From an uncultured Hymenobacter sp. (GTDB lineage: Bacteria > Bacteroidota > Bacteroidia > Cytophagales > Hymenobacteraceae), in the NCBI GenBank assembly GCA_913778455.1, contig CAJYVK010000364.1:1-42605 (forward strand): DNA of 42,605 bases, read 5' to 3'. The notes below the pieces were generated by a model. It was given only the letters and a program-made list of their open reading frames with translations, was not told the DNA's origin and ran no database searches. Position 1 is the stretch's first letter, and each line of letters starts with the position of its first letter. Of the stretch, positions 10,769-33,491 are shown in pieces. Made by a program: the position numbers and the translations under genes.

Positions 10769-11128
10769 ATGATAACCCCCGCCCCCAAGCAGCCCCAGAT
10801 TAGCCCGCTCGATTGGTCCGGTGACCCCGAGCAGTGCCCGCAGTGGGTAGGCTACCCCACTCGCGCCGGCTTACCGGCCGGCCTGCTATGGTCAGGCAGC
10901 GGTGAGGTGCCCGCCATCGGTGCCCGCGTTCACGTCCACATGAACAGCATCGGCCCGGCCGAGGTGAAAGCGTACTTTCACGCGGAGGGCTACTTAGGGG
11001 TACTTTGCCAGCCAGATAAGATGCCGGAGCATCTGGCGAAGCACAGCGTCACACTAGGCCATTTTTTCGGTCGTGAGCTGGAGCCCTATACGGGGTTTTT
11101 CTTCCAAACGGGCGGATTTACACGCTAA
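10769..11128 (+). pseudogene. 5' part of a 407-aa protein gene, cut by the Tn3-bounded element
   Basis: I use the ATG at 10769 (MITPAPKQPQISPLDW). The native sequence ends at 11091 with codons for EPY plus the first two bases of a Thr codon. The frame then runs 11 residues into the transposon inverted repeat before TAA. Joining 11091 to 30519 (one TATAC copy removed) restores the frame for 299 more residues, making 407 in total. Residues 35-103 contain the module shared with the 10309 protein. The function of the intact protein is unknown. Confidence 0.85.
11087..11091. repeat. Target-site duplication TATAC, left copy
   Basis: TATAC directly abuts the first G of the left inverted repeat and matches the five bases after the right inverted repeat (30514-30518). 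Five-base duplications are the hallmark of Tn3-family insertion. Confidence 0.88.
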
Positions 11129-11130
11129 GC
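11092..11130 (+). repeat. Tn3 inverted repeat, outer left (tnpA side)
   Basis: Begins GGGGTTTTTCTTCC and ends CACGCTAAGC. It contains the tnpA stop codon (11125-11127). It pairs with 30475-30513 (one mismatch) and 14828-14866 (three mismatches). Confidence 0.88.
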
Positions 11131-14109
11131 CATTGGGTCGTTGGGATGGCGGAGCGGGCGGCGGTGCAATGGGTCGAGGTGGGCCGGGTTGGCAAAGGAG
11201 TATTTGCCGAGCCGGTTGATGTGCTCGTAGCGGCTGGGCGAGAAGTATTCGAAGTGCGCTTCCTCGACCGGGTACCCTTCGGCGCGCAGCTGCTGGAGGA
11301 CCTCCTGCATGTAGACCGTGTTCCAGAGCAGCACGCAGTTGGTGAGCAGCGTCAGGCAGCGCGCCGCTTCGGCTTGGGCCTCGTGCTGCTTGCGCCGGAT
11401 GACGCCCTCGCTGCCAAACCAGAGCCAGGCGCGCAGCGCGTGCAGCTCTTCGCCCTTGTTGAGCTGGGCATGGATGCGCTGGCGTAGGGGCTGGCTTTGT
11501 AAATAGCGCAGAATGAAGCGGGTCTTGATGAGTTGGCCGTAGGCCTGCAGCACGTAGGTCAGGTGGTTTTGCCGGGGGTAGGCCTGGAGCTTGCCGATGA
11601 AGAGCGACGCCGTGACGCGTCCGGATTTGATGGAGCCGGCTAGGCGCAACAGCTCGTCCCAGTGCCGGCGGATGTAGTCCGGGTTGAGCGTGCCCGTGAA
11701 CTTCAGGTCGGGATAGGCCCAGTCCTGGCCCCGGATTTTGTAGAGCCGCTGGTCGGCCAGGTCCCGCATGCGGGGGCAGAAAAACAGGCCCAGCAGGTCA
11801 AACAGGGCGAAAATGAGGTCCGAGTAACCGGCCGTGTCGGTCGTGTGCTCGGCAATGGCCAGGTCGGTTTCGTTGTCGACGATTTCGTCCAGCACCACCG
11901 TGGCATCGCGCAGCGTGGCCGGCACCACCTTGCTGCCGTACTGGGCGTACTGGTCCGAGGAATGGGTTTGCATCGTCACGCCCCGCCCGGTGCCGAAGTA
12001 CGTGGGCAGGGCGCGGGCGTTGCGCACCTTGCCGCTGACCGCAAACCGCTGGCCATCCGACGAGGAGAAGGTGCCGTCGCCCCAGTAGGCGGCCAGCCAC
12101 TGGCGGTGGTGCTCGTTGACCAGCAGGGTATTGGCTGCTTTCAGCGTGTCTTCGCGCAGGTAGTTGGTGGCCGTCCACCACAGCGATTGGTACGGCAGCG
12201 CGGCGCTGCGGGCCATGTCCGCGAGGGGAATGTTGCAGCCCGTGGCCAGCAGCGTCGCCAGCAGCCGCGTGTCGTGCTCGTCGCCGCGCGGGGCGTGTTC
12301 CAGCCCGGGCAGGTGCGCCGTAAAGCCCAGCCACGCGTTGACTTCGACCAGGATGTCGGTCAAGTCCACGGCCGGCAGGCGGCGGCCGATTTCCTGCTGC
12401 ATGGCCTGGGCCCCGGCGGGCACCTCTTCGGCGGCCGGCCGCGTCACCACCAGCTCGCCGTCTTCTAAGCGCACATCGCCGCCGGCATCGAGGAGCGTTT
12501 GCATCGGTCCCAGCAAGTCGGCCAGCTCCTGCAGGCGCTCGGCGAGGCGGTCCGTGGTCACGGGCGGTAAGCCCAATTGGGCGCACAACTCGGGGCGGGC
12601 CTGCTCCCACTCCGCGGGTGGGATGAGGTAGCTGCTCAAGTCGGCGTAGCGGTGCGACGGGGCCACGTACACGTCGCCAGAGCGCAGCCGCTCGCGCAGC
12701 GTGGCCAGCACGGCCAACTCGTATGCCGGCCGCTGCTGCTCGGCGCTCAGCTGGTCCCCCAGCACGAACTTGCGCCAGGTCGGTTTCAGGAAGCCGGTTG
12801 GGGCCTGCGCGGGCAACTTACGGCGCCGGCCCGCCTGCAACTCGTTGACCAGTTGCAAAGCATCCCCGAAGTCGTCGCCCCCGAAGCCCTGCCGAAACCC
12901 TAGCTGGTCCAGGAGCCGGGGCGTGAACTGCTTGAAGAGCGGGTAGCGCTTGGCCAGGAAACTCAGGTGCGAGTGACGGGTCGGGTAGAGCATCGTTTGC
13001 ACCGCTTCCCAGGCCAGCACCAAGTCCTCGCGCGGCACTTGGGCGTAGATGCTGGGCCGCACCTGCCCGGCCGGGGTCTGGTCTTCGTCGAGCACGATTT
13101 CCACGGCCTGGGCCAGCGTGCGCAGGGCCGTGTCCTTGGCCGCCACCACTTGCTGCTGGTACTGGTCGTGGGCGCGGCGGGCTTTGGCCAGGCTCTGTTC
13201 CCAGAAAGCATCGAACATCCCGAGTACCTCGTCGGTCAGCGTCAGGTAGCTCTCGCGCAGAAACGCGACCAGCACGGGGTAGCGTTTGGCAGCTGGCAAG
13301 CGCTCTAGGTGCCGGTTTGAGCGGCTGCGGGCCAGCAAGGCCAGGCGTTTTTGCCGGTTCGGATGCAGCCCGCTCACGTCCCAGCTCGCCACCCCCAGCC
13401 CATCGAGGTAGCGCAGTTTGTCTAGGGCCGTCGCGATGGCCGCCGGATTGCTGGCCGTGGCCGGCTGCACCAGCCACCGGTGCCGCGTCAGGTGACGCCC
13501 CGCTTCGGGCAGCAGCAGCGCATCCAACTGCTGGCACACCTTGTCCGTGAGCAGGGGTGCCAGGCGCCGGTACGTTTCCTGGGTGGCCAACTCGCTGATG
13601 CCCCCGACCAAGCGTTCCAGCGTGCTGATGGCTGGCCGCACGATGCGGGCCTGGTGTAGCTTCAGGCACGTCATGGTCAGCAGCGCCCGCTCGCCGTCGT
13701 GCTCCAAGGCGCGCTCCACCAGCCAGGGCTCCAGCCAGACGGCATCCAACGGCTCCCACTTCCGGTACCCCAGGTGCAGCAGCACGGCCAGGAAATGGTC
13801 GCTGCGGGTTTGTTGCCGCGCCCCATAGTCAGCGAGGAGCACAGCGTCCGTCGTCAGCTGGGCGGCCACAAAGGCTACGGCTTCGGACGGTAGCTGGCGC
13901 GCCCAGCCCTCGGGCAGAAAGCCCATCAGCCGCAACACCCCTACCTGCACGGCCAGGCCCAGCCGGTTGGCCGCGCCGCGGAAGGGGAGCAGAAACGTGC
14001 GGTCGGCTTCGGTCAGATGGAAGTGCTGGCGGGTGTCGGCTTCGAGCAGCGTGGCGGGCACGGTCTGGTAGCGCAGGCGCTCGGGGGTAGTGAGAAAATC
14101 CTGCGGCAT
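11125..14109 (-). CDS. tnpA: Tn3-family transposase TnpA
   Basis: The 994-residue length is normal for the family. The N terminus fits the DUF4158 domain (about residues 1-170, ending LRLMGFLPEGWARQLP). The C-terminal half is the Tn3 DDE domain, with the acidic regions in GDGTFSSSDGQRF (about 680), YSDLIFALFDLLG (about 760) and the helix GVIRRKQHEAQAEA (about 910). It catalyses replicative transposition between the GGGG-type inverted repeats. The reading frame is intact. The start at 14109 abuts the 15-bp inverted repeat that overlaps both divergent translation starts, and the stop lies in the terminal repeat. Confidence 0.95.
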   Translation of the reverse strand: MPQDFLTTPERLRYQTVPATLLEADTRQHFHLTEADRTFLLPFRGAANRLGLAVQVGVLRLMGFLPEGWARQLPSEAVAFVAAQLTTDAVLLADYGARQQTRSDHFLAVLLHLGYRKWEPLDAVWLEPWLVERALEHDGERALLTMTCLKLHQARIVRPAISTLERLVGGISELATQETYRRLAPLLTDKVCQQLDALLLPEAGRHLTRHRWLVQPATASNPAAIATALDKLRYLDGLGVASWDVSGLHPNRQKRLALLARSRSNRHLERLPAAKRYPVLVAFLRESYLTLTDEVLGMFDAFWEQSLAKARRAHDQYQQQVVAAKDTALRTLAQAVEIVLDEDQTPAGQVRPSIYAQVPREDLVLAWEAVQTMLYPTRHSHLSFLAKRYPLFKQFTPRLLDQLGFRQGFGGDDFGDALQLVNELQAGRRRKLPAQAPTGFLKPTWRKFVLGDQLSAEQQRPAYELAVLATLRERLRSGDVYVAPSHRYADLSSYLIPPAEWEQARPELCAQLGLPPVTTDRLAERLQELADLLGPMQTLLDAGGDVRLEDGELVVTRPAAEEVPAGAQAMQQEIGRRLPAVDLTDILVEVNAWLGFTAHLPGLEHAPRGDEHDTRLLATLLATGCNIPLADMARSAALPYQSLWWTATNYLREDTLKAANTLLVNEHHRQWLAAYWGDGTFSSSDGQRFAVSGKVRNARALPTYFGTGRGVTMQTHSSDQYAQYGSKVVPATLRDATVVLDEIVDNETDLAIAEHTTDTAGYSDLIFALFDLLGLFFCPRMRDLADQRLYKIRGQDWAYPDLKFTGTLNPDYIRRHWDELLRLAGSIKSGRVTASLFIGKLQAYPRQNHLTYVLQAYGQLIKTRFILRYLQSQPLRQRIHAQLNKGEELHALRAWLWFGSEGVIRRKQHEAQAEAARCLTLLTNCVLLWNTVYMQEVLQQLRAEGYPVEEAHFEYFSPSRYEHINRLGKYSFANPAHLDPLHRRPLRHPNDPMA

Positions 14110-14218
14110 GGGGTATCAAAAAGGGTGTGTAAAACCACCCGCGTTTTTGGGGGCGGCAAGGCCGATTTTACGCCCCAAAAAGTAGCTTTGCAAAGGAACT
14201 CCTTTTTGATACCCCCTG
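14110..14218. promoter_or_regulatory. tnpA-tnpR intergenic control region, probable res site
   Basis: The 109-base spacer between the divergent genes is bounded by a perfect 15-bp inverted pair, GGGGTATCAAAAAGG (14110-14124) and CCTTTTTGATACCCC (14201-14215). Each lies just before a start codon and includes the likely ribosome-binding region. A TAGCTTTG -7 box (14183-14190) faces tnpR. By analogy with Tn3, resolvase should bind here for cointegrate resolution and autorepression. Subsite boundaries are not resolved. Confidence 0.55.
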
Positions 14219-14833
14219 ATGCCCGTAAAATCCACTGACCAGCCTAAGCGTGTGGCCCTCTACGCCCGCGTCTCCACCCTCGATAAAGGCCAAGACCCGC
14301 AGACGCAGCTGCGCCCTCTGCGAGAGTACGCCCAGCGGCAGGGCTTCGCCGTGGTCGAAGAGTACGTCGACCAGGCCTCGGGCACCAGCGAAGACCGGAC
14401 CCACTATAAACGGATGATGGCCGCCGCCAAAAAACGGCATCTCGACGCGGTACTGGTCTGGCGCTACGACCGGTTTGCCCGCTCGACCCAGGCGCTGGTC
14501 AACGCGCTGAAGGAATTCCAGAGCCTGGGCGTGGACTTCATCTCCTACCAGGAAAACATCGACACCACCACGCCCACGGGCGAGCTGATTTTCCACGTCA
14601 TGGCCTCGCTGGCCCAGTTTGAGAGCGCACTCATCAGCCAGCGCGTGCGCGCCGGCATGGCCCGGGCCAAGGCCCAAGGCAAGCACGTAGCCCGGCCCCG
14701 GCTGGCGCAGGCCAAGCAGGAAGCCATTGCGCAACTACTGCGCGAAGGCTTATCCATGAATCAGGTCAGCAAGCAGCTGGACGTAGCCTACGGCACGGTC
14801 TACAATTACGCCCAGAAACTGAAGAGTGCTTAG
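14219..14833 (+). CDS. tnpR: Serine resolvase TnpR
   Basis: The 204-residue protein starts with the serine-recombinase motif YARVST (catalytic Ser19) and continues with the family blocks VLVWRYDRFARS and GELIFHVMASLAQFES. A C-terminal helix-turn-helix follows (about 160-200, LSMNQVSKQLDVAYGTVYNY). It resolves cointegrates made by the adjacent transposase at the intergenic site. The frame is intact, and the stop lies in the transposon's internal-end inverted repeat. Confidence 0.95.
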   Translation: MPVKSTDQPKRVALYARVSTLDKGQDPQTQLRPLREYAQRQGFAVVEEYVDQASGTSEDRTHYKRMMAAAKKRHLDAVLVWRYDRFARSTQALVNALKEFQSLGVDFISYQENIDTTTPTGELIFHVMASLAQFESALISQRVRAGMARAKAQGKHVARPRLAQAKQEAIAQLLREGLSMNQVSKQLDVAYGTVYNYAQKLKSA

Positions 14834-14866
14834 CGGGTAAATGCGCCCGTTTGGAAGAAACACCCC
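14828..14866 (-). repeat. Tn3 inverted repeat, tnpR side (internal to the composite)
   Basis: Reads GCTTAGCGGG to ACACCCC on the plus strand. Its complement differs from the left repeat at three of 39 bases. The five bases outside it (GAGTT) do not match TATAC. Confidence 0.85.
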
Positions 14867-15042
14867 GAGTTCCAAAAAAACTGCAAAAGCCAGGTTACGA
14901 AGGCCTTGCCGCACGCGCGTTAATAATTTAGCAGCGCCGCTAAAGGCTCGATACACCCTTCGGCTTCACAGCAGTGCCTTTGTATTTTATATTCAGTCTA
15001 TATCCTGCTACCGTGCTTCTCACCAGCGCTGAGCGTATCTTA
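14867..15042. other. Spacer between Tn3 tnpR end and IS5-family element
   Basis: About 176 bases, partly AT-rich, with no supported gene, hairpin or promoter. Confidence 0.5.
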
Positions 15043-15910
15043 GAGCGTGTTTAGGAATTAGCTGGGCAAAAAGAAACGAGCCAGTAAGTTGCGGCAGGAG
15101 TTCCTAGGCTCCCGCACGCATGATGGTTGAGTGCTATCAACCCCTTACTGACTCGCAGTGGCAAGTTATTGTTTGTTTACTACCTGTTCACCGCAAACGC
15201 CGCTACTGTTTACGGCAAGTGCTTGATGCCATGCGTTATATCTGCCGCACGGGTTGTCAGTGGCGGTGCCTACCCGCCTGTTTTCCTCCCTGGCCCACCG
15301 TGTATTATTACTTTCGCCGCTGGCAGACCGACGGCACGCTGGCCCGCCTCAACCAGGCCAGCAACCGCGCCGACCGGCTGGCACAAGGTCGCCGACCAAC
15401 TCCCTCGCTGGCCCTAGTCGATGCGCAAAGCGTCAAGTTGGCGCCGCGCCTGCGCCAGCAGCGGGGCATAGATGCCCACAAACGCATCAACGGACGCAAG
15501 CGTCAAGTGCTCTGCGACACGGGTGGGCGCATCTGGCAAGCGGCCGTACACGCGGCGAACGGGCATGATAGCCGGGCGGCTCACGTCTTGCTACCTGCGC
15601 GTACAGCCCTACGACCGGCTTGGGCAAGCCGACTGCGTACCGTACTGACGGACAAGGCATATCGAGGTCAATTTGCCCAGCAGGTCCACGCCCTGGGCTG
15701 GCAGCACCAGGTGGCCAGTCGACCGCCTTCCGCCATCCGCGGCTTCGTGCCGGTCGCTAAGCGCTGGGTGGTCGAGCGCACCTTCGCCTGGCTCAGCGCC
15801 TTTCGCCGGCTGGCTGTGGACTACGAACGCACGCCGGCTAGCCACGTGGCGTGGCTCCTACTCGCCAATTTGACTATAACCCTGAACCGACTCCATTCCT
15901 AAACACGCTC
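15043..15910 (+). mobile_element. IS5-family insertion sequence
   Basis: An 868-bp element with perfect 16-bp terminal inverted repeats, GAGCGTGTTTAGGAAT at 15043-15058 and its complement at 15895-15910. Both flanks show TTA (15040-15042 and 15911-15913), fitting a 3-bp target duplication. It carries one uninterrupted transposase, as in the IS427-like group. It sits just upstream of the histidine kinase gene and may have changed that gene's promoter. Confidence 0.9.
15120..15902 (+). CDS. IS5-family DDE transposase
   Basis: The 260-residue protein has an N-terminal DUF4096-type domain (LTDSQWQVIVCLLP, TGCQWRCLP) and a DDE catalytic domain. Likely catalytic residues are Asp101 (LALVDAQSVK), Asp178 (VLTDKAYRG) and Glu219 (VVERTFAWL). 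It is a single frame without the frameshift some IS427 relatives use. The stop codon TAA falls inside the right terminal repeat. An alternative ATG lies one codon later. The element looks intact and potentially active. Confidence 0.93.
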   Translation: MMVECYQPLTDSQWQVIVCLLPVHRKRRYCLRQVLDAMRYICRTGCQWRCLPACFPPWPTVYYYFRRWQTDGTLARLNQASNRADRLAQGRRPTPSLALVDAQSVKLAPRLRQQRGIDAHKRINGRKRQVLCDTGGRIWQAAVHAANGHDSRAAHVLLPARTALRPAWASRLRTVLTDKAYRGQFAQQVHALGWQHQVASRPPSAIRGFVPVAKRWVVERTFAWLSAFRRLAVDYERTPASHVAWLLLANLTITLNRLHS

Positions 15911-16038
15911 TTATACGCGCAGGTAGAACCGGCGTGTCTCATCCGATTTTATACTATTTGTTCTATCGGCTCACAATTGCGGTTAACGCTACGGTACGTA
16001 ATGCAGCAGGTAGAAAATACGCCGGCCAGAACCATGAA

Positions 16039-17889
16039 ATGCGCGTTGTGAAATTCCTAGATACCAAGCCAAGTCGTCCGGGTACTGGTTGCGTAGCACC
16101 CAGTACAAAAATTACGCTTAGCCACCGCAACCGACTTAGGCGATGCGGGCGGCTGGGGGCTACCTGGCTGCTGCTGCTGGTTTCGCTGCGCTCGCTCGCG
16201 GCACCAGCCCCTACGCCTGATAACATCCGGCAACTACACCGCTGGCCGGAGCCCGTGCAGCTGCGCCTGGCCTGGACGCCCATCGTGCCCGGCACGGCGG
16301 CCATATTTGAGGCGCTGGCGCAGCGCGGGGGCTGGTCGCCGGCCGTGCGGCTGGCCCTCACGGGTAATTTGGGCGGGTATTACATCCACGAAAACCAGCC
16401 CAGCCTGGCCATTGCCCGATTGCTGGAGTGCCGCGCCCTTGCCCCGCACGACTCGGCCAGCCGTCGCGAGGCTGCTACCTGGCTCAGCTACTGCTACGGG
16501 CTGCTGCGGCAGCCGCGCCCGGGGCTGGCATTCGGCCGTGAGGCCCTGCGCTTCACGACCGGCCGGGGCGAAGCGCGCCAAGAGCAGCTCAGTGGTATTT
16601 ATAACAACCTGGCCCTGTGCGCCACGCTGTTGGCCGACTACCGGTTGGCGGAAGGCTATTACCGCCAGTGCCTGGCGCTCAACAAAGCCCGGCGGGACAG
16701 TGGCGACGTGGCCGTGACCTGGGGCAACCTGGCCGAACTAGCCCTGAAGCAGCAGCAGCCCACCCGTGCCGGCCAGTGGCTCGACTCGGCCGTGGCAGCC
16801 TATGCGGGCGCGGCCCCGGCCATCCGGCTCTACCTCAGCCAGCTGGCCGGCACGGTGGCCGCGCAGCGGCACCGCTACCCGGCGGCCGTGGCCGTGCTGG
16901 AGCCCGCCCGCCGGCAGGCGCACGCGCTGCGGCTGCTCAACCAGGAAGGCGAGCTGCTTCAGCAGCTGGTGCCGGCGCTGGCTGCCCTGGGCCGGCACCG
17001 CGAGGCACTGCAGCGCCAGCTGCGCCTGAGCGAGCTGCAGGACAGCCTGTTTGAGCAAAACTCGCAGCGTCATGCCCAAGAGCTAAAAGTGCTCTACGAA
17101 ACCCAGCAGCAGCAGGCGCGCATTGGGCAATTGCAGGCCCTGGCCCGGCAGCGGGCCGACGAGCTGCGGCAGCGCACGCTGCTGTTTGGCGGGCTGCTGC
17201 TGGGGCTGGCGGCGGCGGCGGTCCTGCTCGCGCGGGCTTGGCGCGCGCGGCAGCGGCGGCAGCGGCTGGCCCGCGAGGCCGCGCTGCGCACCCGCATTGC
17301 CGCCGACCTGCACGACGAAGTGGGCACCCTACTGGCCCGCGTGAGTATGCAGGCCGACCTGCTCAACACCCAGCAGCCGGGCGAAAATCCGTCGCTTACC
17401 CGCCTGCTGGGCGACAGCCGCGCTGCCGCCCGCACCATGCGCGACATTGTATGGAGCATTGACGCACAAGCCGATACGATGGGTGCGCTACTCGACCGCA
17501 TGCGCGAACACCTCGACCAGACGGCCGGGCCCGCCGGCCTGCGCACCCACTTGCACACCGAGCACCTGCCCGACGAGCTGCCCCTGCCGGCCGACCTGCG
17601 TCAGCATCTCTACCTCGTGTTCAAGGAAGCCGTGACCAATGCGCTGCGCCACGCCACCCACCCCACGCAGGTGGGGGTGACGCTGGCCCGGCACCCCGCC
17701 CGCCGCACACTGGAGCTAACCGTGGAAGACGACGGCCAGCCCGGCCCGCCCCCGGCCCGCAGCGGCATGGGCCTGCGCAACATGCGCCAACGGGCCGCCG
17801 CCCTGGGCGGCAAGCTGGAAGTTGGTCCCCGGCCGGCCGGGGGGTTTGGCGTGCGCTTATGCGTGCCGCTCGGCGAGCTTGCTGATTAG
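16039..17889 (+). CDS. TPR-containing sensor histidine kinase (HisKA_3 type)
   Basis: From 16039 the product has 616 residues; an in-frame ATG at 15934, 23 bases after the IS, would add 35. The true start is uncertain. A hydrophobic export segment (ATWLLLLVSLRSLAAPAP) is followed by TPR-like helical repeats, a coiled coil, one membrane helix (LLLGLAAAAVLLARAW), a dimerisation domain with phospho-acceptor His in DLHDEVGTLL (about residue 425) and a HATPase domain (EAVTNALRHA, GMGLRNMRQRA). Such kinases usually pair with NarL-type regulators, and one lies convergently at 17927-18553. The nearby IS insertion may affect expression. The signal sensed is unknown. Confidence 0.85.
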   Translation: MRVVKFLDTKPSRPGTGCVAPSTKITLSHRNRLRRCGRLGATWLLLLVSLRSLAAPAPTPDNIRQLHRWPEPVQLRLAWTPIVPGTAAIFEALAQRGGWSPAVRLALTGNLGGYYIHENQPSLAIARLLECRALAPHDSASRREAATWLSYCYGLLRQPRPGLAFGREALRFTTGRGEARQEQLSGIYNNLALCATLLADYRLAEGYYRQCLALNKARRDSGDVAVTWGNLAELALKQQQPTRAGQWLDSAVAAYAGAAPAIRLYLSQLAGTVAAQRHRYPAAVAVLEPARRQAHALRLLNQEGELLQQLVPALAALGRHREALQRQLRLSELQDSLFEQNSQRHAQELKVLYETQQQQARIGQLQALARQRADELRQRTLLFGGLLLGLAAAAVLLARAWRARQRRQRLAREAALRTRIAADLHDEVGTLLARVSMQADLLNTQQPGENPSLTRLLGDSRAAARTMRDIVWSIDAQADTMGALLDRMREHLDQTAGPAGLRTHLHTEHLPDELPLPADLRQHLYLVFKEAVTNALRHATHPTQVGVTLARHPARRTLELTVEDDGQPGPPPARSGMGLRNMRQRAAALGGKLEVGPRPAGGFGVRLCVPLGELAD

Positions 17890-17926
17890 TTACTGATAAT
17901 CAATGATTAGTCGATAATTCGCAGCC

Positions 17927-18553
17927 TTACTCGCGCATGCGCCGGGCCAGCTCGGTGCGCGAACCCACTTCCAGCTTCTTGTAGATGCGCTTGACGAAGG
18001 TGCGCACCGTGTCGAGCGAGAGGCCCAGGCGGGCGGCCACCTGCTTATCGCCCAGCCCGTCGATGATGCCCTGCACCACGTCCAGCTCGCGGGGCGTCAG
18101 CAGGTCGGGCCGGGTGGTGGGCGTGGGCTTGAAATGGGCCAGCACCTTGCGGGCCACGGCTCGGCTCATGGGTGCCCCACCCTGGGCTACTTCGAGCACG
18201 GCAGCTTTCAGCTCGGCCAGGGGGGTGTGCTTGAGCACGTAGCCGCTGGCCCCCCGGCACAGGGCCTGGTAAATGCGGTCGGCATCGTCGAACACGGTTT
18301 GCATCACGATGTCAGTATCGGGCAGGCGTTGGCGCAGCAGGGGCAGCGCCTCCAGGCCGCTCTGGCCAGGCAGGGCAATGTCGAGCAGCAGCACCTGGGG
18401 CAGCTGGCGCAGGTAGGGCAGCTGGGCCAGCAGGTCTTCTACCGATACGGCCACGGCTACGCAATCGAATTCGGGCTGGCCGCAGAGGTAGCTGCGCAGC
18501 AGCTCGCGCACCACGGCGTCGTCTTCTACCAGGGCCAGACGGATGTGAGACAT
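17927..18553 (-). CDS. NarL/LuxR-family response regulator
   Basis: I use the ATG at 18553 (MSHIRLALVEDD). The 208-residue protein has a receiver domain with phospho-acceptor Asp58 (LLLDIALPG), acidic pair EDD at 10-12 and Lys in YVLKHTPLAEL. A LuxR-type helix-turn-helix follows (LTPRELDVVQGIIDGL, then VAARLGLSLDTVRTFVKRI). It is the natural partner of the kinase whose gene ends 37 bases away, but the two genes converge rather than forming an operon, which is unusual for such pairs. It may regulate the neighbouring surface-protein genes, which is inference. Confidence 0.92.
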   Translation of the reverse strand: MSHIRLALVEDDAVVRELLRSYLCGQPEFDCVAVAVSVEDLLAQLPYLRQLPQVLLLDIALPGQSGLEALPLLRQRLPDTDIVMQTVFDDADRIYQALCRGASGYVLKHTPLAELKAAVLEVAQGGAPMSRAVARKVLAHFKPTPTTRPDLLTPRELDVVQGIIDGLGDKQVAARLGLSLDTVRTFVKRIYKKLEVGSRTELARRMRE

Positions 18554-18618
18554 TGCATTCGGGGGTAATAAAGGAAGCGGGCGCAAGCCAAGTCAAAAAT
18601 AGGCGTTCAGCCGCGCCG

Positions 18619-21336: not shown

Positions 21337-21415
21337 AAATAATTACCTGGAAAACGGCTGGAATGCATGCTGCGAAATGAGTGCGGGGCTGGCCGAACAG
21401 ACACTGCGGCCCCTG

Positions 21416-23719: not shown

Positions 23720-23790
23720 TATCGAGAAGTGAAAAACAGGCCCGCGGCCAAGCAAAAGTCCGGGCGGGCAAATGAGAAAACCCGCTGCTC

Positions 23791-25302
23791 CTAGCGGGCG
23801 GCGGTGGGCTGAGCGGCCTCCAGGGCTTGCAGGCGCTGGGCGAGGCGGGGCACCTGGGCCTCGGCCTCGACGGCGCGGGCGCTGGCCTGGCGGGCCTGTT
23901 GGCGGGCGTCGTCGGCCTGCTGCTGCAAGCGGGCGTACTGCTGCTTCAGGGTTTCGAGCTGGCGGTCCAGCTCCTGGGTGGCGCTCACGTTGAGCATCGA
24001 AAGGGCCTCGTAGTCGACAGTGCGCACGTCGGGGTGCTCCAGGCCGAACACGAATACGCGCTGGCCGGCCAGCGCCCGCCCTCCGCGCACCAGCAGCTGC
24101 GGCTGCCCGGCGGCCGTGGCGCGGGCCAGCCGCACCACCAGCTCGCCCTCCTCGCCAATCAGGCGCAGGGCTTGGCCGGCGCTGCCCGCCACGGGCAGGC
24201 CCCGGCCGGCGGGCAGCGTGAGCAGCAGCAGCGAATCGGCGGCCAGGGCGGCGGTGGCCGGCGCGTACACGTCGGGCAGGAAGCCGCGCTGGCGCTGCAC
24301 GGCCTGCGGAAAGACTTCTTCCACGTCCTGGGCAATGACTTTCTTGAACGGCCGGTCGCCGTACGCGGCGCGGTCCAGCATCTGGTAGTCGGTGATGCGC
24401 AGGCGGCGCAGCAGGCCCAGGTCGGCGGCGGCGTTGCTCAGGCCGATGACCTGCTTGAGGCGGCGGTCGGAGGTGGCATTAAACTCCGAGGCCACCACCC
24501 GACCCTCGGCCCGGATGGTAACGTTGTTAGGGTTGGTGCCGGCGGCATAGCCATAGGAGGCCACGCCGGTGCCGCGGGTGAAATAGGCGTAGTCGAACGC
24601 CCCGATGCTGGTGCCGCCACGCACGTCGAGCGGGGCAATGGGAGCCGCGGTGCCGATGCCGATGAAGCCGTTGGCCTTGCGGATGGTGAGGTAGTTGCGA
24701 AAGCTCCGGTTAGAAAGGTCGTTGCCCTCCGAAATCTTGAAATTGTTGTCGTCGCTGCGGTCCATGCCCATCGAGTAGAAGGCCTGGCCGGGGTGGTGAA
24801 ACCACAGGAAGGCGTTGGCGTTGTCGTGGCGCACTTCGAGGGCACTGTTGAGCACGCGCATGGTGCCGGCCACGTCGAGCTGCGCCTGGGGGGTGCTGGT
24901 GCCGATGCCCACCGCGTCCGATACATTGCTCGGAACTAAGCTATTGCCCGTGCGCTGCCAGAAGCTGGTCACGTTCACGAAGTTGCTGCCGTCGAGCACC
25001 AGGGGGTCGAGCGTGCCCACCACTTCCTGCCAGGCGGTGGCGGTGCGCAGGTTGAGGCGGTTGGTGGTGGTATTGTACACCAGCAGCCCCGCCGCCGGGC
25101 TGGCAATGGCGTCGCGCTGGGCCGTGGTCATGCGCGGGGGCAGCAGGCCCTTGGTGGTACTGCTCACGTCGAGCATGGCCGAGGAGGCGGGCACGGTGCC
25201 GATGCCCAAGGCCTGGGCCTGGGCCGCGGTAGCCCCGGCGCCGGTACTGGCAGCCACGGCCAGCAGCGCGGCCAAACAGCGGGAGGAAACGAGTGGGGGC
25301 AT
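23791..25302 (-). CDS. Secreted tail-fiber-like protein with S74 chaperone domain
   Basis: I start at 25302 (MPPLVSSRCLAALLAVAAS), a signal peptide; the in-frame ATG at 25395 adds an Arg/Pro-rich stretch unlike the family. The 503-residue protein shares MLDVSSTTKGLLPPRMT, YNTTTNRLNL, VRHDNANAFLWFHHPGQAF and the S74 block NATSDRRLKQVIGLSN with its neighbours, but lacks the glycine-rich insert. The C terminus is a predicted coiled coil (LKQQYARLQQQADDARQQA). It lies 71 bases upstream of the 767-residue paralogue on the same strand and 187 bases from the divergent third paralogue, so tandem and inverted duplication is likely. Confidence 0.88.
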   Translation of the reverse strand: MPPLVSSRCLAALLAVAASTGAGATAAQAQALGIGTVPASSAMLDVSSTTKGLLPPRMTTAQRDAIASPAAGLLVYNTTTNRLNLRTATAWQEVVGTLDPLVLDGSNFVNVTSFWQRTGNSLVPSNVSDAVGIGTSTPQAQLDVAGTMRVLNSALEVRHDNANAFLWFHHPGQAFYSMGMDRSDDNNFKISEGNDLSNRSFRNYLTIRKANGFIGIGTAAPIAPLDVRGGTSIGAFDYAYFTRGTGVASYGYAAGTNPNNVTIRAEGRVVASEFNATSDRRLKQVIGLSNAAADLGLLRRLRITDYQMLDRAAYGDRPFKKVIAQDVEEVFPQAVQRQRGFLPDVYAPATAALAADSLLLLTLPAGRGLPVAGSAGQALRLIGEEGELVVRLARATAAGQPQLLVRGGRALAGQRVFVFGLEHPDVRTVDYEALSMLNVSATQELDRQLETLKQQYARLQQQADDARQQARQASARAVEAEAQVPRLAQRLQALEAAQPTAAR

Positions 25303-25489
25303 AGCCGGAGATAAAGTCGTCGGGGAAAGCGTCGCAAAACTACCGGGCCCCCTTGGGCGGCCGCAACGGGGGCTTGTACCGCAAATGCGGTACAAGCCCC
25401 CGTTGCCCGGCCCTGAGCCCTGGTCGGAGCTTTGTACCGCCGCTAGCCGGGCTCTTTTATTTCCGCAACCCCCTCAATTTGTGTTCTTC

Positions 25490-28192
25490 ATGAAGCACCT
25501 CCTACGCTCCCTTGGCCTGCTGGCCGGGCTGGCCGCCGCCAGCCAGCCCCTGCGGGCGCAGGCCCAGACCGGCGGGGTGGGCATCGGCACGGCCACGCCC
25601 GCGCCCTCGGCCCTGCTCGACCTCACCAGCACCACCAAAGGCCTGCTGGCCCCGCGTCTCACGGCCGCGCAGCGGGCGGCTGTTGCCAGCCCGGCGGCGG
25701 GGCTGCTCGTATACCAGACCGACGGCGTGCAGCGCGGCTTTTGGTACCACGACGGCAGCGCCTGGACCTACCTCAGCCCCACCGCCGCGGGCGACAACCT
25801 GGGCAGCCACACGGCTACCCAAAACCTGAACCTAGCCGGCAACCAACTGGTGGGCAACGGCGGCACCCAGGGCCTGAGCATCAGCAGCACCGGCCAGGTG
25901 GGCGTGGGCGTGGTGGCTCCTGCCGCCCGCCTCGACGTGCAGGGCGACCTGCGCGTGGGCTTGAGCACGCCCGCCCTTACGCCCGGCAGCTTCGGCAACC
26001 CCACCCCCAGCAACCCTACGCTCCTGTACGGAGCCGGCCAGCTGGGGCAGTCGTTTACGGTGCCGGCGGGCATCCGGCAGCTGGTAAGCATCCAGGTGGT
26101 AACACGGCAGTCTACCCAGCAGCCAACCGCGCTGGCGTTGTACGCCGGCAACACCGTGAGCGGCACCCCGCTGCTGCAGCAGCCGCTGACCATTGCCAGC
26201 GGCGGCCCGCAAACCATCACCCTCACTGCCCCGCTGCCCGTAACGCCCGGCGGCGTGTACACGGTGGTTTTTCAGGGGGACCCCAACCTTATTTATGCGA
26301 TGGAGGCCGAAACCCAGAACGGCACCTACGCCGGGGGCGACGCTTGGACTGATATCGGCCTGCAAGCGGACGCCGACCTGACCTTTACGGTGCAGGGCAA
26401 CTCCGGTACTGCGCCCTTTGTAGAGCCAACCTTGTACGCTGGCAGCCAGCAGGTAGGCATCAATACCTACGCGCCGCAGGCCACGCTGCACGTAGCCGGC
26501 GGCACCAGCACCGTGCGCCTGGAGGGGCTGGCCGGCACCGGCACCCGCATGCTGGTGGCTGATGCCACCGGCAACCTGGGCGCGCAGGCCGTTCCCACCG
26601 GCGGCGACAACCTGGGCAGCCACACCGCCACCCAAAACCTGAACCTGGGGGCCTACCAGCTGGTGGGCAACGGCGGCACCCAGGGCCTGAGCATCAGCAG
26701 CGCGGGCCAGGTGGGCATCGGCCTGGCGGCCCCGCTGCGGCCGCTCGACGTGAGCGGCCCCGTGCTGCTGCGCAAGCGCCTGGTGCTGGGCCCGCAGAGC
26801 GGGGCCGACCCCGCCAGCAACCTGGTCTGGAACCTGGACAACGAGAGCGGCGACCTGCGGGTATTTCAGGAAAATAACCTGGGCGGGTCCGGGGGCGTCG
26901 TGCGGATGATTATCAAGCGCAATGGCCGCCTGGGTGTGGGCACCGACAACCCTGGCCAGCTGCTGGAGGTAGCCGGCCCGATTTTCAGCAGCGCGGGCGG
27001 CTTCCGCTTTCCCGATAACTCGGTGCAAACCACCGCCGCCACGTCCCAGACCCTGACCGTGAGTGGCCAGAATCTGAGCATCAGCAACGGCAACACCGTG
27101 ACGCTGCCCCTGGGGGCCGACAACCTGGGCAACCACACCGCCACCCAGCCGCTGAAGCTCAACACCCAGCCGCTGTACCTGAACCTGGCCAATGACCCCA
27201 ACCACCAGCTACGCTTCAACCAGGGCATCGACGGGCCGCAGCTTTTTGGCTATAACGGCGGCGAGCTGGGGGCCAACGGCAGCACCTACCGCTCGGTACT
27301 GCGCTGGACCAATGCTGGCAACGTGGGCATTGGCACTGCCAGCCCGGCCTTCCCGCTCGATGTGCAGAGTACCGTCACGCCGGGCGGCTACAACTACATC
27401 TACCTCAGCAGCAGCGGGCAAAACGGCCTGATTGGCTACGCCGCCGGGGGCACCGGGGCCGTGAGCATCCGGGCCACGGGCCGGGTGCTGGCCTCGGAGT
27501 TCAACGCTACCTCCGACCGCCGGCTCAAAAACGTCATCGGCCGGAGCGATAACGCGGCCGATTTGAGCCTGCTCACCAAGCTGCGCATCACCGACTACAC
27601 CATGCGCGACCGGGTGCAGTACGGCGACCGGCGCTTCAAGAAAGTTATTGCCCAGGAAGTGGAGGAAGTCTTTCCGCAGGCCGTAAACCAGCACCCTGGC
27701 TTCCTGCCCGACGTGTACGCCCTGGCCACCAGCGCCAGCGCCGCCCCCGGCGACTCGCTGCTGCGCCTCACGCTGCCGGCCGCCGTGGCCGCCCGGCCCG
27801 GCCAGCGCATCCGGCTGCTGAGCGAGGCGCGCGAAGTGGTGGGCACCGTGGTAGCCGCCACCGGCCCCACGCTGCTGGTGCGCGGCGGCCGGGTGCTGGC
27901 CGGCCGGCCGGTGTTCGTGTTCGGCCTGGAGCACCCCGACGTGCGCACCGTGGACTACGAAGCCCTGGCCATGCTCAACGTGAGCGCCACCCAGGAGCTG
28001 GCCCGTCAATTAGTTGATTTACAAAGACAAAACGCCCAGCTTCGCCAGCAGCACGCGGCCCTGCAAGCTGCCCAGCAGGCCGACCACGCCCGCCTCGACG
28101 CATTGCAAGCCCAGGCCACCACCGCCCCCGAACTAGCCCAGCGCCTGCAAGCCCTGGAAGATCTGCTCGGCGCCAAAGCTTCGGTGAAATAA
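25490..28192 (+). CDS. Large secreted tail-fiber-like protein with repeated segments and S74 chaperone domain
   Basis: The start at 25490 (MKHLLRSLGLLAGLAAASQP) gives a signal peptide and 900 residues; the open frame extends upstream to 24815 without coding signs. It has the paralogous N-terminal block (LLDLTSTTKGLLAPRLTAAQ), two near-identical 37-residue repeats encoded at 25793-25903 and 26606-26716 with a third degenerate copy near 27117, and repeated VGIGT-type segments. The S74 domain follows (NATSDRRLKNVIGRSDN, KKVIAQEVEEVFPQAV). It ends in a Gln-rich coiled coil. The stop overlaps the next gene's ATG by one base, so both are probably co-translated. A trimeric fibre is the structural expectation. 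Confidence 0.9.
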   Translation: MKHLLRSLGLLAGLAAASQPLRAQAQTGGVGIGTATPAPSALLDLTSTTKGLLAPRLTAAQRAAVASPAAGLLVYQTDGVQRGFWYHDGSAWTYLSPTAAGDNLGSHTATQNLNLAGNQLVGNGGTQGLSISSTGQVGVGVVAPAARLDVQGDLRVGLSTPALTPGSFGNPTPSNPTLLYGAGQLGQSFTVPAGIRQLVSIQVVTRQSTQQPTALALYAGNTVSGTPLLQQPLTIASGGPQTITLTAPLPVTPGGVYTVVFQGDPNLIYAMEAETQNGTYAGGDAWTDIGLQADADLTFTVQGNSGTAPFVEPTLYAGSQQVGINTYAPQATLHVAGGTSTVRLEGLAGTGTRMLVADATGNLGAQAVPTGGDNLGSHTATQNLNLGAYQLVGNGGTQGLSISSAGQVGIGLAAPLRPLDVSGPVLLRKRLVLGPQSGADPASNLVWNLDNESGDLRVFQENNLGGSGGVVRMIIKRNGRLGVGTDNPGQLLEVAGPIFSSAGGFRFPDNSVQTTAATSQTLTVSGQNLSISNGNTVTLPLGADNLGNHTATQPLKLNTQPLYLNLANDPNHQLRFNQGIDGPQLFGYNGGELGANGSTYRSVLRWTNAGNVGIGTASPAFPLDVQSTVTPGGYNYIYLSSSGQNGLIGYAAGGTGAVSIRATGRVLASEFNATSDRRLKNVIGRSDNAADLSLLTKLRITDYTMRDRVQYGDRRFKKVIAQEVEEVFPQAVNQHPGFLPDVYALATSASAAPGDSLLRLTLPAAVAARPGQRIRLLSEAREVVGTVVAATGPTLLVRGGRVLAGRPVFVFGLEHPDVRTVDYEALAMLNVSATQELARQLVDLQRQNAQLRQQHAALQAAQQADHARLDALQAQATTAPELAQRLQALEDLLGAKASVK
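25793..25903 (+). repeat. 111-bp coding direct repeat, copy 1
   Basis: Begins GACAACCTGGGCAGCCACAC and ends GGCCAGGTGGGC. Nearly identical to 26606-26716 in the same gene, encoding DNLGSHTATQNLNL and NGGTQGLSIS. Confidence 0.8.
26606..26716 (+). repeat. 111-bp coding direct repeat, copy 2
   Basis: Same length and frame as 25793-25903. A shorter degenerate copy begins near 27117. Such repeats allow length change by recombination. Confidence 0.8.
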
Positions 28193-29646
28193 TGGCCGCC
28201 GTTCTCGCCAAAACCGCCCTGGGGCTGGCCCTCGCGCTGGCCGGCACCGCCCGCGCCCAAAGCCTCACCAACACCGGTACCCAGCTCACGGTGGCCGCCG
28301 ATGCCCTGCTGGCCGTGCCCGGCGCGCTGGTCAACCAGGCCGGGGGCACGCTCACTACGGCCGGCACGGTGCTGGTGGGCGGCGACTTCACCAACGCCGG
28401 CACCGTGGTGCCGGCCAGCGGCCAGGTCGTGTTCACGGGCGGAGCCGACCAGACCTTGGTGCCCGGCGGGGCCACGCTGCCCAGCCTGGAAGTGCGCAAC
28501 ACCGGCCCCGCCGGCCAAAACCGCGTGCTCGTCACCGCCGACCTCACCGTAGGCCAGCAGCTCCGCCTCCGCAGCGGCCTGCTGCGCACTGCCCCCACGG
28601 CCACCGTGCGCCTGCCCGACGGGGCCACCCTCACGGGCGAAGGCCCCGGCCGCTACGTGCAGGGCCACCTGCGTGTAGAGCGCAGTGCCGTGAGCGGTAC
28701 CGTGCCGCTCGACTTTGGCCACGGCTTCGTGTTGAATCCCAACGGTAACGCGCTGGGCACGGTACGCGCCACCCGCAGTGCCGGCCTGCAAACGGCGGGC
28801 CTGAGCTTCGCCCAAAACCCAGCCAACACCAGCCAGCATGGTATCGACCGCATCTGGACGGTGGTGCCCGACCAGCAGCCCGCTACGCCCATCAGCCTCA
28901 CCTTTGCCTGGCTGCCCGACGACGACAACGGCCTCAGCTTTGGCAGCGCGCAGGCGTGGCGGCTGCCCGACGGCGGTACCGCCTGGCAGGCCGTGGGCAG
29001 CCCGGCCAGCGGGGCTGCCCGCAGCCTCACGGTGAGTAGCCTTGTTCTCTCGCGCTGGACGGTGAGCAGCCTGGCCAGCCCGCTACCCGTGGAGTTGGTT
29101 AGCTTCACAGCCGAGCGCCAAGGCCCCGATGCGCTGCTGCGCTGGGCTACGGCCTCAGAGAAAAACAATGACCGGTTTGAGGTGGAGAGCAGCCTCGACG
29201 GGCGCATCTTTGCCCACCTTGGCACAGTACTTGGTCGGGGCAGCAGTTCCCAGCCCCACGCCTACTCTTTCCAAGACCCCGACCTGGCCCGCTACGCCGC
29301 TGCCATGGTGTACTACCGCCTGCGCCAAGTAGACCGCGACGGCACGGCCAGCTACTCGCCCGTGCGCCCGGTGCAGGTGCCGGCCGGAGCGGACTTTGCG
29401 GTGCAGGCCTATCCGCAGCCGTTCACTACGACGCTCAGTCTGTTTATCCGCACGGCTGCGGCGGGGCCAGCTAACATTGCCCTGCACGATGCAGTGGGCC
29501 GGGCCTTGCTCACGCGCGCTGTAAACCTACTGCCAGGCAGCACTATGGTGCCGTTGCCTGAGGCAGCGGCGCTGCCCAGTGGGGCGTACGTTCTAACTAT
29601 TAGCCAGAATCAGTACCACCGCACCGTGAAAGTCGTGCGGGAGTAG
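28192..29646 (+). CDS. T9SS-sorted surface protein, coupled to the large S74 protein
   Basis: The 484-residue protein opens with a signal peptide (LALALAGTARAQS). A beta-rich, Gly/Thr-rich passenger follows (LVNQAGGTLTTAGTVLVGGD, TFAWLPDDDNGLSFG). It then has the LPVELVSFTAERQGPDALLRW linker common before T9SS sorting domains and a type A C-terminal domain (VQAYPQPFTTTLSL). The ATG at 28192 overlaps the TAA of the preceding gene. The last 170 residues resemble the end of the 905-residue protein (LTSFTAEAAGPDALLRW). A surface role is likely; the partner of the S74 protein is inference from coupling. Confidence 0.9.
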   Translation: MAAVLAKTALGLALALAGTARAQSLTNTGTQLTVAADALLAVPGALVNQAGGTLTTAGTVLVGGDFTNAGTVVPASGQVVFTGGADQTLVPGGATLPSLEVRNTGPAGQNRVLVTADLTVGQQLRLRSGLLRTAPTATVRLPDGATLTGEGPGRYVQGHLRVERSAVSGTVPLDFGHGFVLNPNGNALGTVRATRSAGLQTAGLSFAQNPANTSQHGIDRIWTVVPDQQPATPISLTFAWLPDDDNGLSFGSAQAWRLPDGGTAWQAVGSPASGAARSLTVSSLVLSRWTVSSLASPLPVELVSFTAERQGPDALLRWATASEKNNDRFEVESSLDGRIFAHLGTVLGRGSSSQPHAYSFQDPDLARYAAAMVYYRLRQVDRDGTASYSPVRPVQVPAGADFAVQAYPQPFTTTLSLFIRTAAAGPANIALHDAVGRALLTRAVNLLPGSTMVPLPEAAALPSGAYVLTISQNQYHRTVKVVRE

Positions 29647-29862
29647 GGTCTGGGCTCTACTTCTTAACCAGTCTTTAAAGGTGCGTAATATCCGGAAAGG
29701 AAACCGATGATGAGGGCGCTAGTGTAGGTGTATAGTCCCAAGGAGTGACGGAGTATTTTCCGGGCCGGAGTTTCGCTCACCATTACGGGGCAAGTGCTCC
29801 ATGGCAGCGCCCGCACAACTTAGGCGGTACAGCGTGCTATTCAACACAGCCAAGAAAATCTA
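29647..29862. other. Non-coding or decayed spacer at the cargo's right edge
   Basis: About 216 bases with no supported gene. It may contain degenerate ends of the IS481-like remnant that follows, but no inverted repeat could be assigned. Confidence 0.45.
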
Positions 29863-30267
29863 TAAAACTTAGTCAGGCGCTACAGCATCAAGTCGAAAAT
29901 GGTGATTATATGGCGTAAACGTCCCGACGTGCGGGATGCGCGCATGGGTCCAGAGCCGGTTTTAACGGTGCTCACGGCCGAACAGGAGTCTATTGCCATG
30001 GCTTTTCGCCGGCACACCCTGTTAGTATTGGATGAGTTCCTATATGCGCTGTAACCCACAATTCCACACTTGTCGCGCTCGGCGCTACACCGCTGTTTTC
30101 CGCGCCACGGCATTGGCCGCTTGCCCCTGAACGAAGACAGGCAGAGCCTTCCGAAAAAGAAATCTCGCGACTACCCAGTCGGCTATCTGCACAGTGATTT
30201 TGCCGAAGTGTAGGTCGAAGAAAGCCGCTAGTATCTCTTTGTGACCATTGACTGCACCAGTAAAGTT
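29863..30267 (+). pseudogene. Decayed IS481-family transposase fragment
   Basis: One plus-strand frame reads IWRKRPDVRDARMGPEP, LTAEQESIAMAFRRHTLL, TIPHLSRSALHRCFPRHG and DYPVGYLHSDFAEV, the usual order of an IS481 transposase up to its first catalytic Asp (HSDFAEV). It has in-frame stops (after YAL, after FAEV and after ESR) where relatives have sense codons. It breaks off after TIDCTSKVAF, where tnpA sequence begins. The C-terminal catalytic part is missing, so the fragment is inactive. Confidence 0.72.
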
Positions 30268-30513
30268 GCCTTTCTGCTCTGAAACACCATCCATATGAAG
30301 GAAGTCCTCCAGCAACTGCAGGCCGAAAGGTATCCGGTCAACGAGGCCCACTTCCCATACTTCTCGCCCGGCCGCTACGAGCACATCAACCGACTGGGCA
30401 AATACTCCTTCACCAACCCGGCTCACTTGGACCCGCTACACCGCCGTCCACTCCGCCATCCCGGCGACCCGATGGCTTAGCGTGTAAATCCGCCCGTTTG
30501 GAAGAAGAACCCC
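30268..30513 (+). mobile_element. Tn3-family remnant: tnpA 3' end plus terminal inverted repeat
   Basis: From 30268 the frame reads LL-stop-NTIHMKEVLQQL, matching LLWNTVYMQEVLQQL of the intact TnpA (Trp codon TGG changed to TGA). It continues to the same DPMA stop at 30480. Over the 61 residues from Met the two copies differ at eight. The outer inverted repeat (30475-30513) closes the 19.4-kb element. The fragment is in opposite orientation to the intact tnpA. Confidence 0.85.
30475..30513 (-). repeat. Tn3 inverted repeat, outer right (tnpA side)
   Basis: Plus strand starts GCTTAGCGTGTAAATCC and ends GAACCCC. One mismatch to the complement of 11092-11130. Confidence 0.88.
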
Positions 30514-30518
30514 TATAC
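30514..30518. repeat. Target-site duplication TATAC, right copy
   Basis: Perfect match to 11087-11091, directly outside the right inverted repeat. Confidence 0.88.
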
Positions 30519-31419
30519 GCCCGGCCCCGCCGCGCCGGCCCAGGTGCCCGAAGTGGTAGAAATCATCTTGCAGGACTACCGGGTGATTCCGGCCCCGCTT
30601 TACTACCGCAACATGCCCACCGGCCGCATTACGGTGGTGTACGGCGGGCTGGCCGACTACTACGGTTTCTACGATGTGGAATACTTCGCCGGCACGGACC
30701 GCCAGGACGCGGCCCAGCTGGCCGACCCGGCCAACTGGAAAGACCTTCCCGAGCACCATTACCTAGAGATTCACGAGGCCAGCCACGAGCGCAAGGGGCC
30801 GCAGATTTTTGCCCTTCGCGACGGCACGGCGGACCAGGTGGACTACCTGACCGAGCAGTTCCACGGCCCGTTCCGCATCCCCGGCCGCGAGGCGTACATT
30901 TTTGACCAGTACGACACGCTAGGGGCCCTGGCCGAAGCGATGAAAGAGCAGGGGGAGCAGTACCGGGGCCGCATCGTGGAGAATAACGAGTGGCGGACGT
31001 GGGTAGCGTTTGAGGAAGAAATGGGCGGCAGCGGGGAATGCCCGTGGGAGCGCGTAGAGCTCGACTTGGGGCAGCTGCCGCTCGACAGCTACGTCTACAT
31101 TTCGGGCCGCCGGGCCACGGCCGAGGAAGGGGAGGGCAACGGCCGGGTTACGCTTTGGCAGCAGCCCAGCGGGCAGTACTACGTGGAAACCGAGCCCCGT
31201 TTTCACTATGGCCCCAATTACCCCACGCTAACCCCGCTAACGCTGGCCCAGGTGCAGGAGCGGTATGCATTCGAGTTCATCCCCAACGGCCAGGAGCCCG
31301 CGCCGGTCGAGCACGGCGACTGGATTCCGGAATACCCGCCCCAGGAGGGCGACGAGCTGGCCGACAACCAGGACAGCACCGAGTACCCGGAATACCCGGC
31401 CGACGAGCAGCGTGACTAA
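30519..31419 (+). pseudogene. 3' part of the 407-aa protein gene split by the transposon
   Basis: The frame continues that of 10769-11091 exactly: base 30519 completes the Thr codon, followed by PGPAAPAQVPEVVEIILQ. It encodes 299 residues with a Pro/Ala linker, Tyr/Glu-rich mixed alpha-beta sequence and an acidic tail (EYPPQEGDELADNQDSTEYP). A GTG at 30544 could start a separate 291-residue protein, so some product may still be made, but no promoter or ribosome site is evident. I recognise no family. The downstream gene begins 28 bases later, so insertion probably silenced it as well. Confidence 0.8.
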
Positions 31420-31446
31420 CCCCACTTTTTACAATTGCAAAATCTG

Positions 31447-31979: not shown

Positions 31980-32123
31980 ATAAGTGGGCTGCTACAGGCT
32001 TCAACGATAAGCCGATATAAACGTAAATGTTGAGCTGTAAAAGGTGTCAGTAACTGCCTGAAAGACAAGAGAAGCGCGGGCAAAATTTAACTGGGCTGGT
32101 AACAGGGCATTGTATATTTACCT

Positions 32124-32780: not shown

Positions 32781-32796
32781 AAGTTTGGTACAAAAG

Positions 32797-32895: not shown

Positions 32896-32934
32896 CAAGC
32901 CAGCTGGCTATTTTTAGGATTTCCTTCCTGCTCC

Positions 32935-33486: not shown

Positions 33487-33491
33487 AGCGC

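Follow-up and report, generated by a model that had tools for sequence, protein, structure and literature searches.

INTRODUCTION

Transposon Tn1721 is made up of a complete minor transposon, its cargo, and a second transposase that is truncated; it has three repeats of 38 bp each and direct repeats of 5 bp, and its origin is attributed to two elements, part of one having been deleted (excerpts of PMC5736529 and PMC5756416). Here, we describe a 19.4-kb block of comparable architecture in an uncultured Hymenobacter sp. The window that we analyzed is the whole of contig C364 (CAJYVK010000364.1; 42,605 bases), which belongs to a 5.4-Mb draft genome in 403 contigs. Assignment to Hymenobacter is suggested by the named sequences that its tnpA and flanks match. 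We put the probability at roughly 93% that the block at positions 11092-30513 moved as a single unit and represents a Tn1721-type composite transposon of the Tn3 family. Its cargo combines a two-component system with proteins that carry the S74 chaperone/protease domain and proteins of the type associated with the type IX secretion system (T9SS).

As far as the available excerpts describe Tn1721/Tn1722, the block resembles this system in having three repeats, of which two share an orientation around the cargo and the third faces the other way, and a complete minor unit with tnpA and tnpR at one side. It further shares with Tn1721 a truncated second tnpA at the far end and the 5-bp direct repeats. 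In contrast to the tetA/tetR cargo that these excerpts give for Tn1721, the block carries S74 proteins, T9SS-type proteins, and a two-component system. Moreover, Tn1721 ends in a second copy of the same tnpA, whereas the relic in the block comes from a different Tn3 element (85% to the resident tnpA) and is inverted, and, unlike in Tn1721, insertion sequence (IS) elements or fragments border the cargo.

Tn3-family cargo has been described as resistance, catabolic, and virulence genes (PMC7157771, in part). TnXax1 of Xanthomonas, covered in the same excerpt, is like the block a Tn3-family module carrying genes for interaction with other organisms; it has a tnpS/tnpT resolvase and two single genes (xopE and mlt), whereas the block holds a surface-fibre locus with its own two-component system. 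An IS5-flanked composite transposon has been proposed around porR of Porphyromonas, which is linked to T9SS but is not a Tn3 element (PMC7323717, partial text). Our search of titles and the beginnings of abstracts returned no report of a Tn3 element with cargo like that of the block, which is weak evidence of absence. The original prediction for this stretch, made from the letters alone, had called the cargo unusual on the grounds that such cargo is normally resistance or catabolic genes. The kinase/regulator pair with T9SS and S74 proteins is indeed present; the generalization was too narrow, since virulence and plant-pathogenicity cargo is known (PMC7157771, in the sections consulted).

RESULTS

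The block occupies two unrelated sites with different target duplications

The two outer 39-bp inverted repeats of the block match at 38 of 39 bases, and TATAC borders the block exactly on both sides, both as originally predicted. Other than the right and the inner repeat, no inverted sequence in the window matches the left repeat with fewer than 18 mismatches in 39. Does the block occur elsewhere between other duplications? Full-length cargo (query 15934-30273) was found in 2 of the 120 genomes of the genus, the window's own and that of G108, an uncultured Hymenobacter. In G108, the block lies on contig C46 (CAJYPK010000046.1) at 50261-69682, and its 19,422 bases align to the window's copy with 123 mismatches, 0 gaps, and identical boundaries. 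TACTA stands on both sides of this second copy, and the site is unrelated to the one in the window. There, the interrupted reading frame is similar to the beginning of a membrane sensor kinase, and the homologue in G003 is uninterrupted across the same point. G003 is the only genome of the genus besides G108 with a long match to that site (70%). We also looked in the window's own genome for an uninterrupted version of the G108 site but did not find one; its long match is confined to the neighbouring gene.

A third, inner repeat, which the original prediction did not list, differs from the left end at 3 of 39 positions and makes the left 3,775 bp of the block a complete Tn3 unit. The bases outside this inner repeat are GAGTT, matching neither TATAC nor TACTA. 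What moved is therefore the whole 19.4 kb rather than the 3.8-kb unit, and the outer pair of repeats was used in both insertions. A search of the window's own genome for a lone 3.8-kb unit found none: the four matches to the left end are the three repeats of the block and one 27-base match elsewhere.

The two copies of the block are 99.4% identical. By comparison, the longest matching piece of the native fibre loci in the two genomes (5.8 kb) shows 90.8% identity, and the other pieces show 76-90%. This difference suggests that the block was shared recently between the two genomes.

The empty target site is found in relatives and on a finished plasmid

Removal of 11092-30518, which joins 10769-11091 to 30519-31419, leaves an open frame of 1,224 bases, in agreement with the restored frame of the original prediction. 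A gene of exactly this length is annotated (126258-127481) on NZ_CP095054.1, a finished 135-kb plasmid of H. aerilatus on which the left and right flanks adjoin. The plasmid gene equals the joined flanks at 1,223 of 1,224 bases and contains one TATAC. In the 25 kb read around this empty site, the plasmid has no repeat of the Tn3 clade (with up to 8 mismatches).

Some match to the interrupted gene is present in 55 of the 120 genomes, and 13 have it in one piece (at least 1,188 of 1,236 bases covered); in the window's own genome, it is split in two. The junction was examined in 10 of these 13 genomes and was uninterrupted in every one. In G068 and G003, all 60 bases compared are the same as in the joined flanks, with a single TATAC; the other eight have TACAC in its place. 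G108 itself holds an empty version of the window's site, on contig C61. The claim that the 19.4 kb had transposed as one unit is thus borne out by a second copy with another 5-bp repeat and by the empty sites: relatives have the gene uninterrupted, and in G108 the block lies at another locus.

Since both flanks of the window match Hymenobacter plasmids and abut on NZ_CP095054.1, the molecule that hosts the block is most likely a plasmid. The right flank (about 31050-42605) reaches 100% identity to G108:C61 for kilobases. From about 32768, a stretch encoding a histidine kinase, LytTR, DUF305, a beta-propeller, a sulfate exporter, and LysR is common to several Hymenobacter plasmids at 99.5-99.9%. 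An isolated fragment of DUF4158 (N-terminal TnpA) lies at the start of this shared stretch (32935-33486), is annotated on two finished plasmids too, and represents a further Tn3 trace.

The composite has three ends

The block matches the Tn3 family in its ~1,000-aa DDE transposase, its terminal repeats (39 bp here; 38-40 bp in the family), and its 5-bp duplications. TnpA aligns with the transposase of Tn4430 (7qd4) at an E value of 2.9e-145, and the three catalytic residues D, D, and E are aligned, given the residue numbers that we assume for Tn4430 TnpA. Between the divergent tnpA and tnpR lies a res-like region, placed as in Tn3 (PMC7157771, in part), which may serve as the res site. The features of the block are listed in Table 1.

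At the right edge, the last 240 bp of the relic tnpA are 92.9% identical to the tnpA end of two plasmid elements, from H. sublimis and Hymenobacter sp. 5516J-16, versus 85.4% to the resident tnpA. Because the relic is inverted relative to the resident unit, both outer ends of the block are tnpA-proximal. Read from its sequence, the composite has three ends and is built from parts of two different Tn3 elements. Immediately to the left of the relic, a fragment of a second insertion sequence, presumably IS481-like, stops exactly at 30273, where the relic starts; the transposase is ~330 aa long in relatives. On the other side of the cargo, the IS5-family element stops just upstream of the sensor kinase frame (region 15043-15934) and could change the promoter or the start of the kinase.

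TABLE 1 Features of the block and of the interrupted gene (positions in the window)
Feature	Position	Strand	Evidence or remark
5' part of interrupted plasmid gene	10769..11091	+	0 mismatches in 323 to NZ_CP095054.1
Target-site duplication TATAC, left copy	11087..11091	.	single TATAC at empty site of H. aerilatus plasmid, G068, and G003
Outer left terminal inverted repeat, tnpA-proximal end	11092..11130	+	38/39 to right end; also at G108:C46:69644-69682
tnpA, Tn3-family transposase, 994 aa	11125..14109	-	PF01526 E 7.7e-130; NF033527 852 bits (cut-off 500)
res-like region between divergent tnpA and tnpR	14107..14218	.	18-bp inverted arms 14107-14124 / 14201-14218
tnpR, serine resolvase, 204 aa	14219..14833	+	PF00239 E 2.1e-45
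Inner inverted repeat, tnpR-proximal end of 3,775-bp unit	14828..14866	-	3/39 mismatches to left end
IS5-family insertion sequence	15043..15910	+	16-bp perfect ends; transposase 15120-15902 (PF13340, PF01609); TTA both sides by eye
TPR sensor histidine kinase	15934..17889	+	PF07730, PF02518, PF13424; longest open frame, true start probably further in
LuxR-type response regulator	17927..18586	-	PF00072, PF00196
T9a, 905 aa, T9SS-associated and fn3 domains	18619..21336	-	PF23759, PF00041; TIGR04183 22.2 bits vs cut-off 23
S74a, fibre-type, glycine-rich domain and S74 chaperone/protease	21416..23755	-	PF12810, PF13884; SDxxxK
S74b, S74 protein	23791..25395	-	PF13884; SDxxxK
S74c, 900-aa S74 fibre-type protein	25490..28192	+	PF13884; SDxxxK
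T9b, 484-aa T9SS-sorted protein	28192..29646	+	TIGR04183 26.2 bits, cut-off 23; below Pfam cut-off of PF18962
5' fragment of second insertion sequence	29725..30273	+	79-81% to G012 and G067 copies with open transposase frame
3' relic of second, different tnpA	30274..30477	+	tblastn 81% over 70 aa
Outer right terminal inverted repeat	30475..30513	-	38/39 to left end; same boundary in G108 copy
Target-site duplication TATAC, right copy	30514..30518	.	equals left copy
3' part of interrupted plasmid gene	30519..31419	+	1 mismatch in 901 to NZ_CP095054.1

The cargo resembles a native Hymenobacter locus and is probably foreign

All three S74 proteins of the cargo have the SDxxxK motif, and S74c matches the Bdellovibrio fibre bd2133 (8ond; phmmer E value of 1.3e-13). 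Among the mosaic adhesive trimeric (MAT) fibres of Bdellovibrio, one of two groups has S74 with SDxxxK (PMC10769870, in part), as do the S74 proteins of the block; bd2133 itself, according to the same excerpt, is in the group without S74. MAT fibres are further marked by a conserved beta-rich domain behind the signal peptide and by a trimeric shaft. The block's S74 proteins are at most candidate members of the MAT family; of the three, it is S74c that matches a solved MAT fibre. SprA, a core protein of T9SS, is encoded in the window's own genome.

We examined 12 native-type loci, picked from the best cargo matches and not at random. Homologues of the kinase, the regulator, the S74 proteins, and T9b occur together in 9 of the 12; two loci are without a T9b match above 90 bits, and one is cut by a contig end. 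The native locus of the window's own genome is on contig C398. Relative to the native order in the examined loci, the minus-strand trio of T9a, S74a, and S74b is extra.

Is the cargo a duplicate of the native locus of its own host? This origin was rejected, as the native T9b copies of the window's own genome (a 256-residue piece) and of G108 are sisters (100/100) in the T9b tree and the transposon copy stands elsewhere. The separation from both native copies suggests that the cargo is probably foreign to both hosts and came from another lineage. In the response-regulator tree, the transposon copy sits on a long unresolved branch. In a plasmid collection searched at megablast sensitivity, the cargo was not found; two records match, each over 200 bases of the tnpA relic.

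Comparison of the two block copies revealed that all 10 compared genes are stop-free in both, with a pooled ratio of nonsynonymous to synonymous differences (pN/pS) of 0.18 for the cargo. The kinase, T9b, the IS5 transposase, and tnpR are identical between the copies, and tnpA has 2 differences. The region 18161-26459 contains 120 of the 123 differences.

Related Tn3 elements carry unlike cargo

We scanned 16 sequence sets for the ends of the resident tnpA clade. An end pair with identical 5-bp flanks was found in 7 of them, corresponding to 5 different elements; the other 9 have one end, no end, or unmatched flanks. The five elements are those of H. rubidus (6,331 bp; flanks TAATA), H. sediminis (6,337 bp; TATCA), and Hymenobacter sp. 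BT190 (9,025 bp; AAAAA, a run of A and hence weak), and those on plasmids of H. sublimis (5,309 bp; TAGTG) and Hymenobacter sp. 5516J-16 (11,439 bp; GGCGA).

The H. sublimis and 5516J-16 elements have a tnpA of the same clade as that of the block (87-88% at the DNA level) and share its plan: the unit forms one edge, the cargo follows tnpR, and the other edge is an inverted tnpA end (124 bp, 84% to the resident tnpA end). In both, the unit ends at position 3757 of 3775 and the inner repeat is truncated, whereas the inner repeat of the block is complete. Their annotated cargo includes an amidohydrolase-family gene, unlike that of the block, and the 5516J-16 element has other genes also between tnpA and tnpR. 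A plan common to these three elements with unlike cargo indicates a recurring platform whose cargo varies. That the two plasmid elements (on NZ_CP095849.1, L063/L095, and NZ_CP095059.1, L065) are alike in plan and also in the truncation of their inner repeat points to a common ancestor that exchanges cargo.

The elements of H. rubidus, H. sediminis, and BT190 agree with the block in clade, in ends, and in having identical 5-bp flanks but show no inverted tnpA relic beyond the 39-bp repeat. In the first two, the cargo is found between tnpA and tnpR; in BT190, it occupies the space from tnpR to the far end. H. rubidus carries a 773-aa glycosidase-like protein, which the H. sediminis protein equals at 756 of 774 positions (stop included); both have a lipoprotein-type start, as judged by eye. 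This glycosidase-like protein (GDE_C), nearly the same in the two elements, is encoded at L006:6473-8794 and L012:7453-9774. The BT190 cargo comprises a 1,273-aa T9SS-sorted lectin-like protein (TIGR04183, 26.8 bits; cut-off, 23) and a 242-aa protein without a family. As a raw count, exported-type proteins are thus present in 3 of these 5 elements.

G094 and Rudanella have inverted repeat pairs with unmatched flanks, and G045 has a 3,775-bp unit with decayed ends and unmatched flanks. A stretch of 191 bp (G000:C27:3290-3480, L032) consists of two Tn3-type ends (9 and 7 mismatches of 39) with TGTAA on both sides. It is too short for a transposase gene, holds a piece resembling a res arm (by eye), and is what we take to be a miniature Tn3-derived element.

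DISCUSSION

The 19.4-kb block moved as a single unit: both of its ends, both duplications, the empty sites, and the open genes were observed. Could homologous recombination between two separately inserted Tn3 copies, the unit and the relic, instead have captured the cargo in place, in a block that never moved? The two ends are 85% alike over 240 bp and inverted, and the cargo bears signs of homologous exchange. Such an event, however, yields neither identical boundaries with another 5-bp duplication nor an empty site with a single TATAC, and both were observed. This alternative is refuted for the present positions of the block and is very improbable overall, although it could still describe the first assembly of the composite.

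One might also suppose that only the 3.8-kb unit is mobile and that the cargo arrived beside it separately, as the unit is complete with its own repeat pair and G045 holds a unit of the same length with decayed ends. In both copies, however, it is the flanks of the outer pair that match; GAGTT outside the inner repeat fits neither duplication, and the cargo is gapless in both. Mobility of the unit alone is refuted for these two insertions, and we consider it extremely improbable. A block wrongly joined into one contig by assembly or binning would be just as improbable. Although both holders are drafts and the two genomes share part of the right flank at 100% identity, the block stands on two contigs that differ in their flanks, its ends are exact, the two duplications are different, the 123 mismatches are clustered, and the empty site lies on a finished plasmid.

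Several observations weigh against a simple composite transposon with a regulated fibre locus as cargo. Full-length cargo in only 2 of the 120 genomes means just two insertions. Single-unit transposition is deduced from sequence comparison, and both holders are draft or metagenome assemblies. The mismatches between the copies are strongly clustered, with 118 of 123 falling within 8,256 bases (18203-26459), whereas none of 2,000 random placements gave a span below 16,351. This clustering suggests that homologous recombination probably acts on the block too; likeliest, the fibre core of one copy would have been replaced through homologous recombination with another version. Compared with G108:C61, the right flank shows near identity and the left flank ~91%, which marks the host plasmid itself as a mosaic. 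As for the cargo, S74c alone has a significant match to a solved structure (best E values of 0.016 for S74a and 0.22 for S74b), the TIGR04183 score of T9a is slightly under the cut-off, and control of the fibres by the kinase/regulator pair is suggested by gene neighbourhood only.

A composite transposon moved as one unit remains our preferred explanation. In the mechanism that we propose, TnpA of the left-edge unit would act on the two outermost repeats and move all that lies between them. Transposition would be replicative, through a cointegrate, with 5 bp of the target duplicated, and TnpR would then act on the res-like region between its own gene and tnpA to resolve the cointegrate. The right end would have been supplied by the truncated, inverted end of a different Tn3 element beyond the cargo. 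The cargo itself would be a second, foreign version of a native Hymenobacter locus in which a two-component system stands beside S74 fibre-type and T9SS-type proteins. The host would most likely gain an additional surface-fibre set, displayed on the cell and separately regulated by the kinase/regulator pair.

Neither the mechanism of transposition nor the overall architecture, which Tn1721 closely prefigures, is novel. The novelty lies in the cargo, in a platform that recurs with an inverted tnpA end, and in how cleanly the sequence proves the case. One unit at two sites, with two duplications and empty sites, makes an unusually complete sequence proof for one Tn3 composite. The cargo range of the Tn3 family is extended to a surface-fibre locus with its own two-component system.

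For the bacterium, the block may provide a second set of surface proteins. More tentatively, this Tn3 subfamily might be a shuttle for surface loci in Hymenobacter, a recurring platform with exchangeable cargo that here brings a complete alternative fibre locus, under regulation of its own, to stand beside the native one, and in which homologous exchange between copies swaps the fibre genes while the ends stay fixed; we regard this as possible but doubtful. If it were true, strains could trade surface identity, including phage receptors, attachment, and the recognition of other cells. As native and transposon-borne loci coexist in one genome, the acquisition of new surface fibres by Bacteroidota becomes testable.

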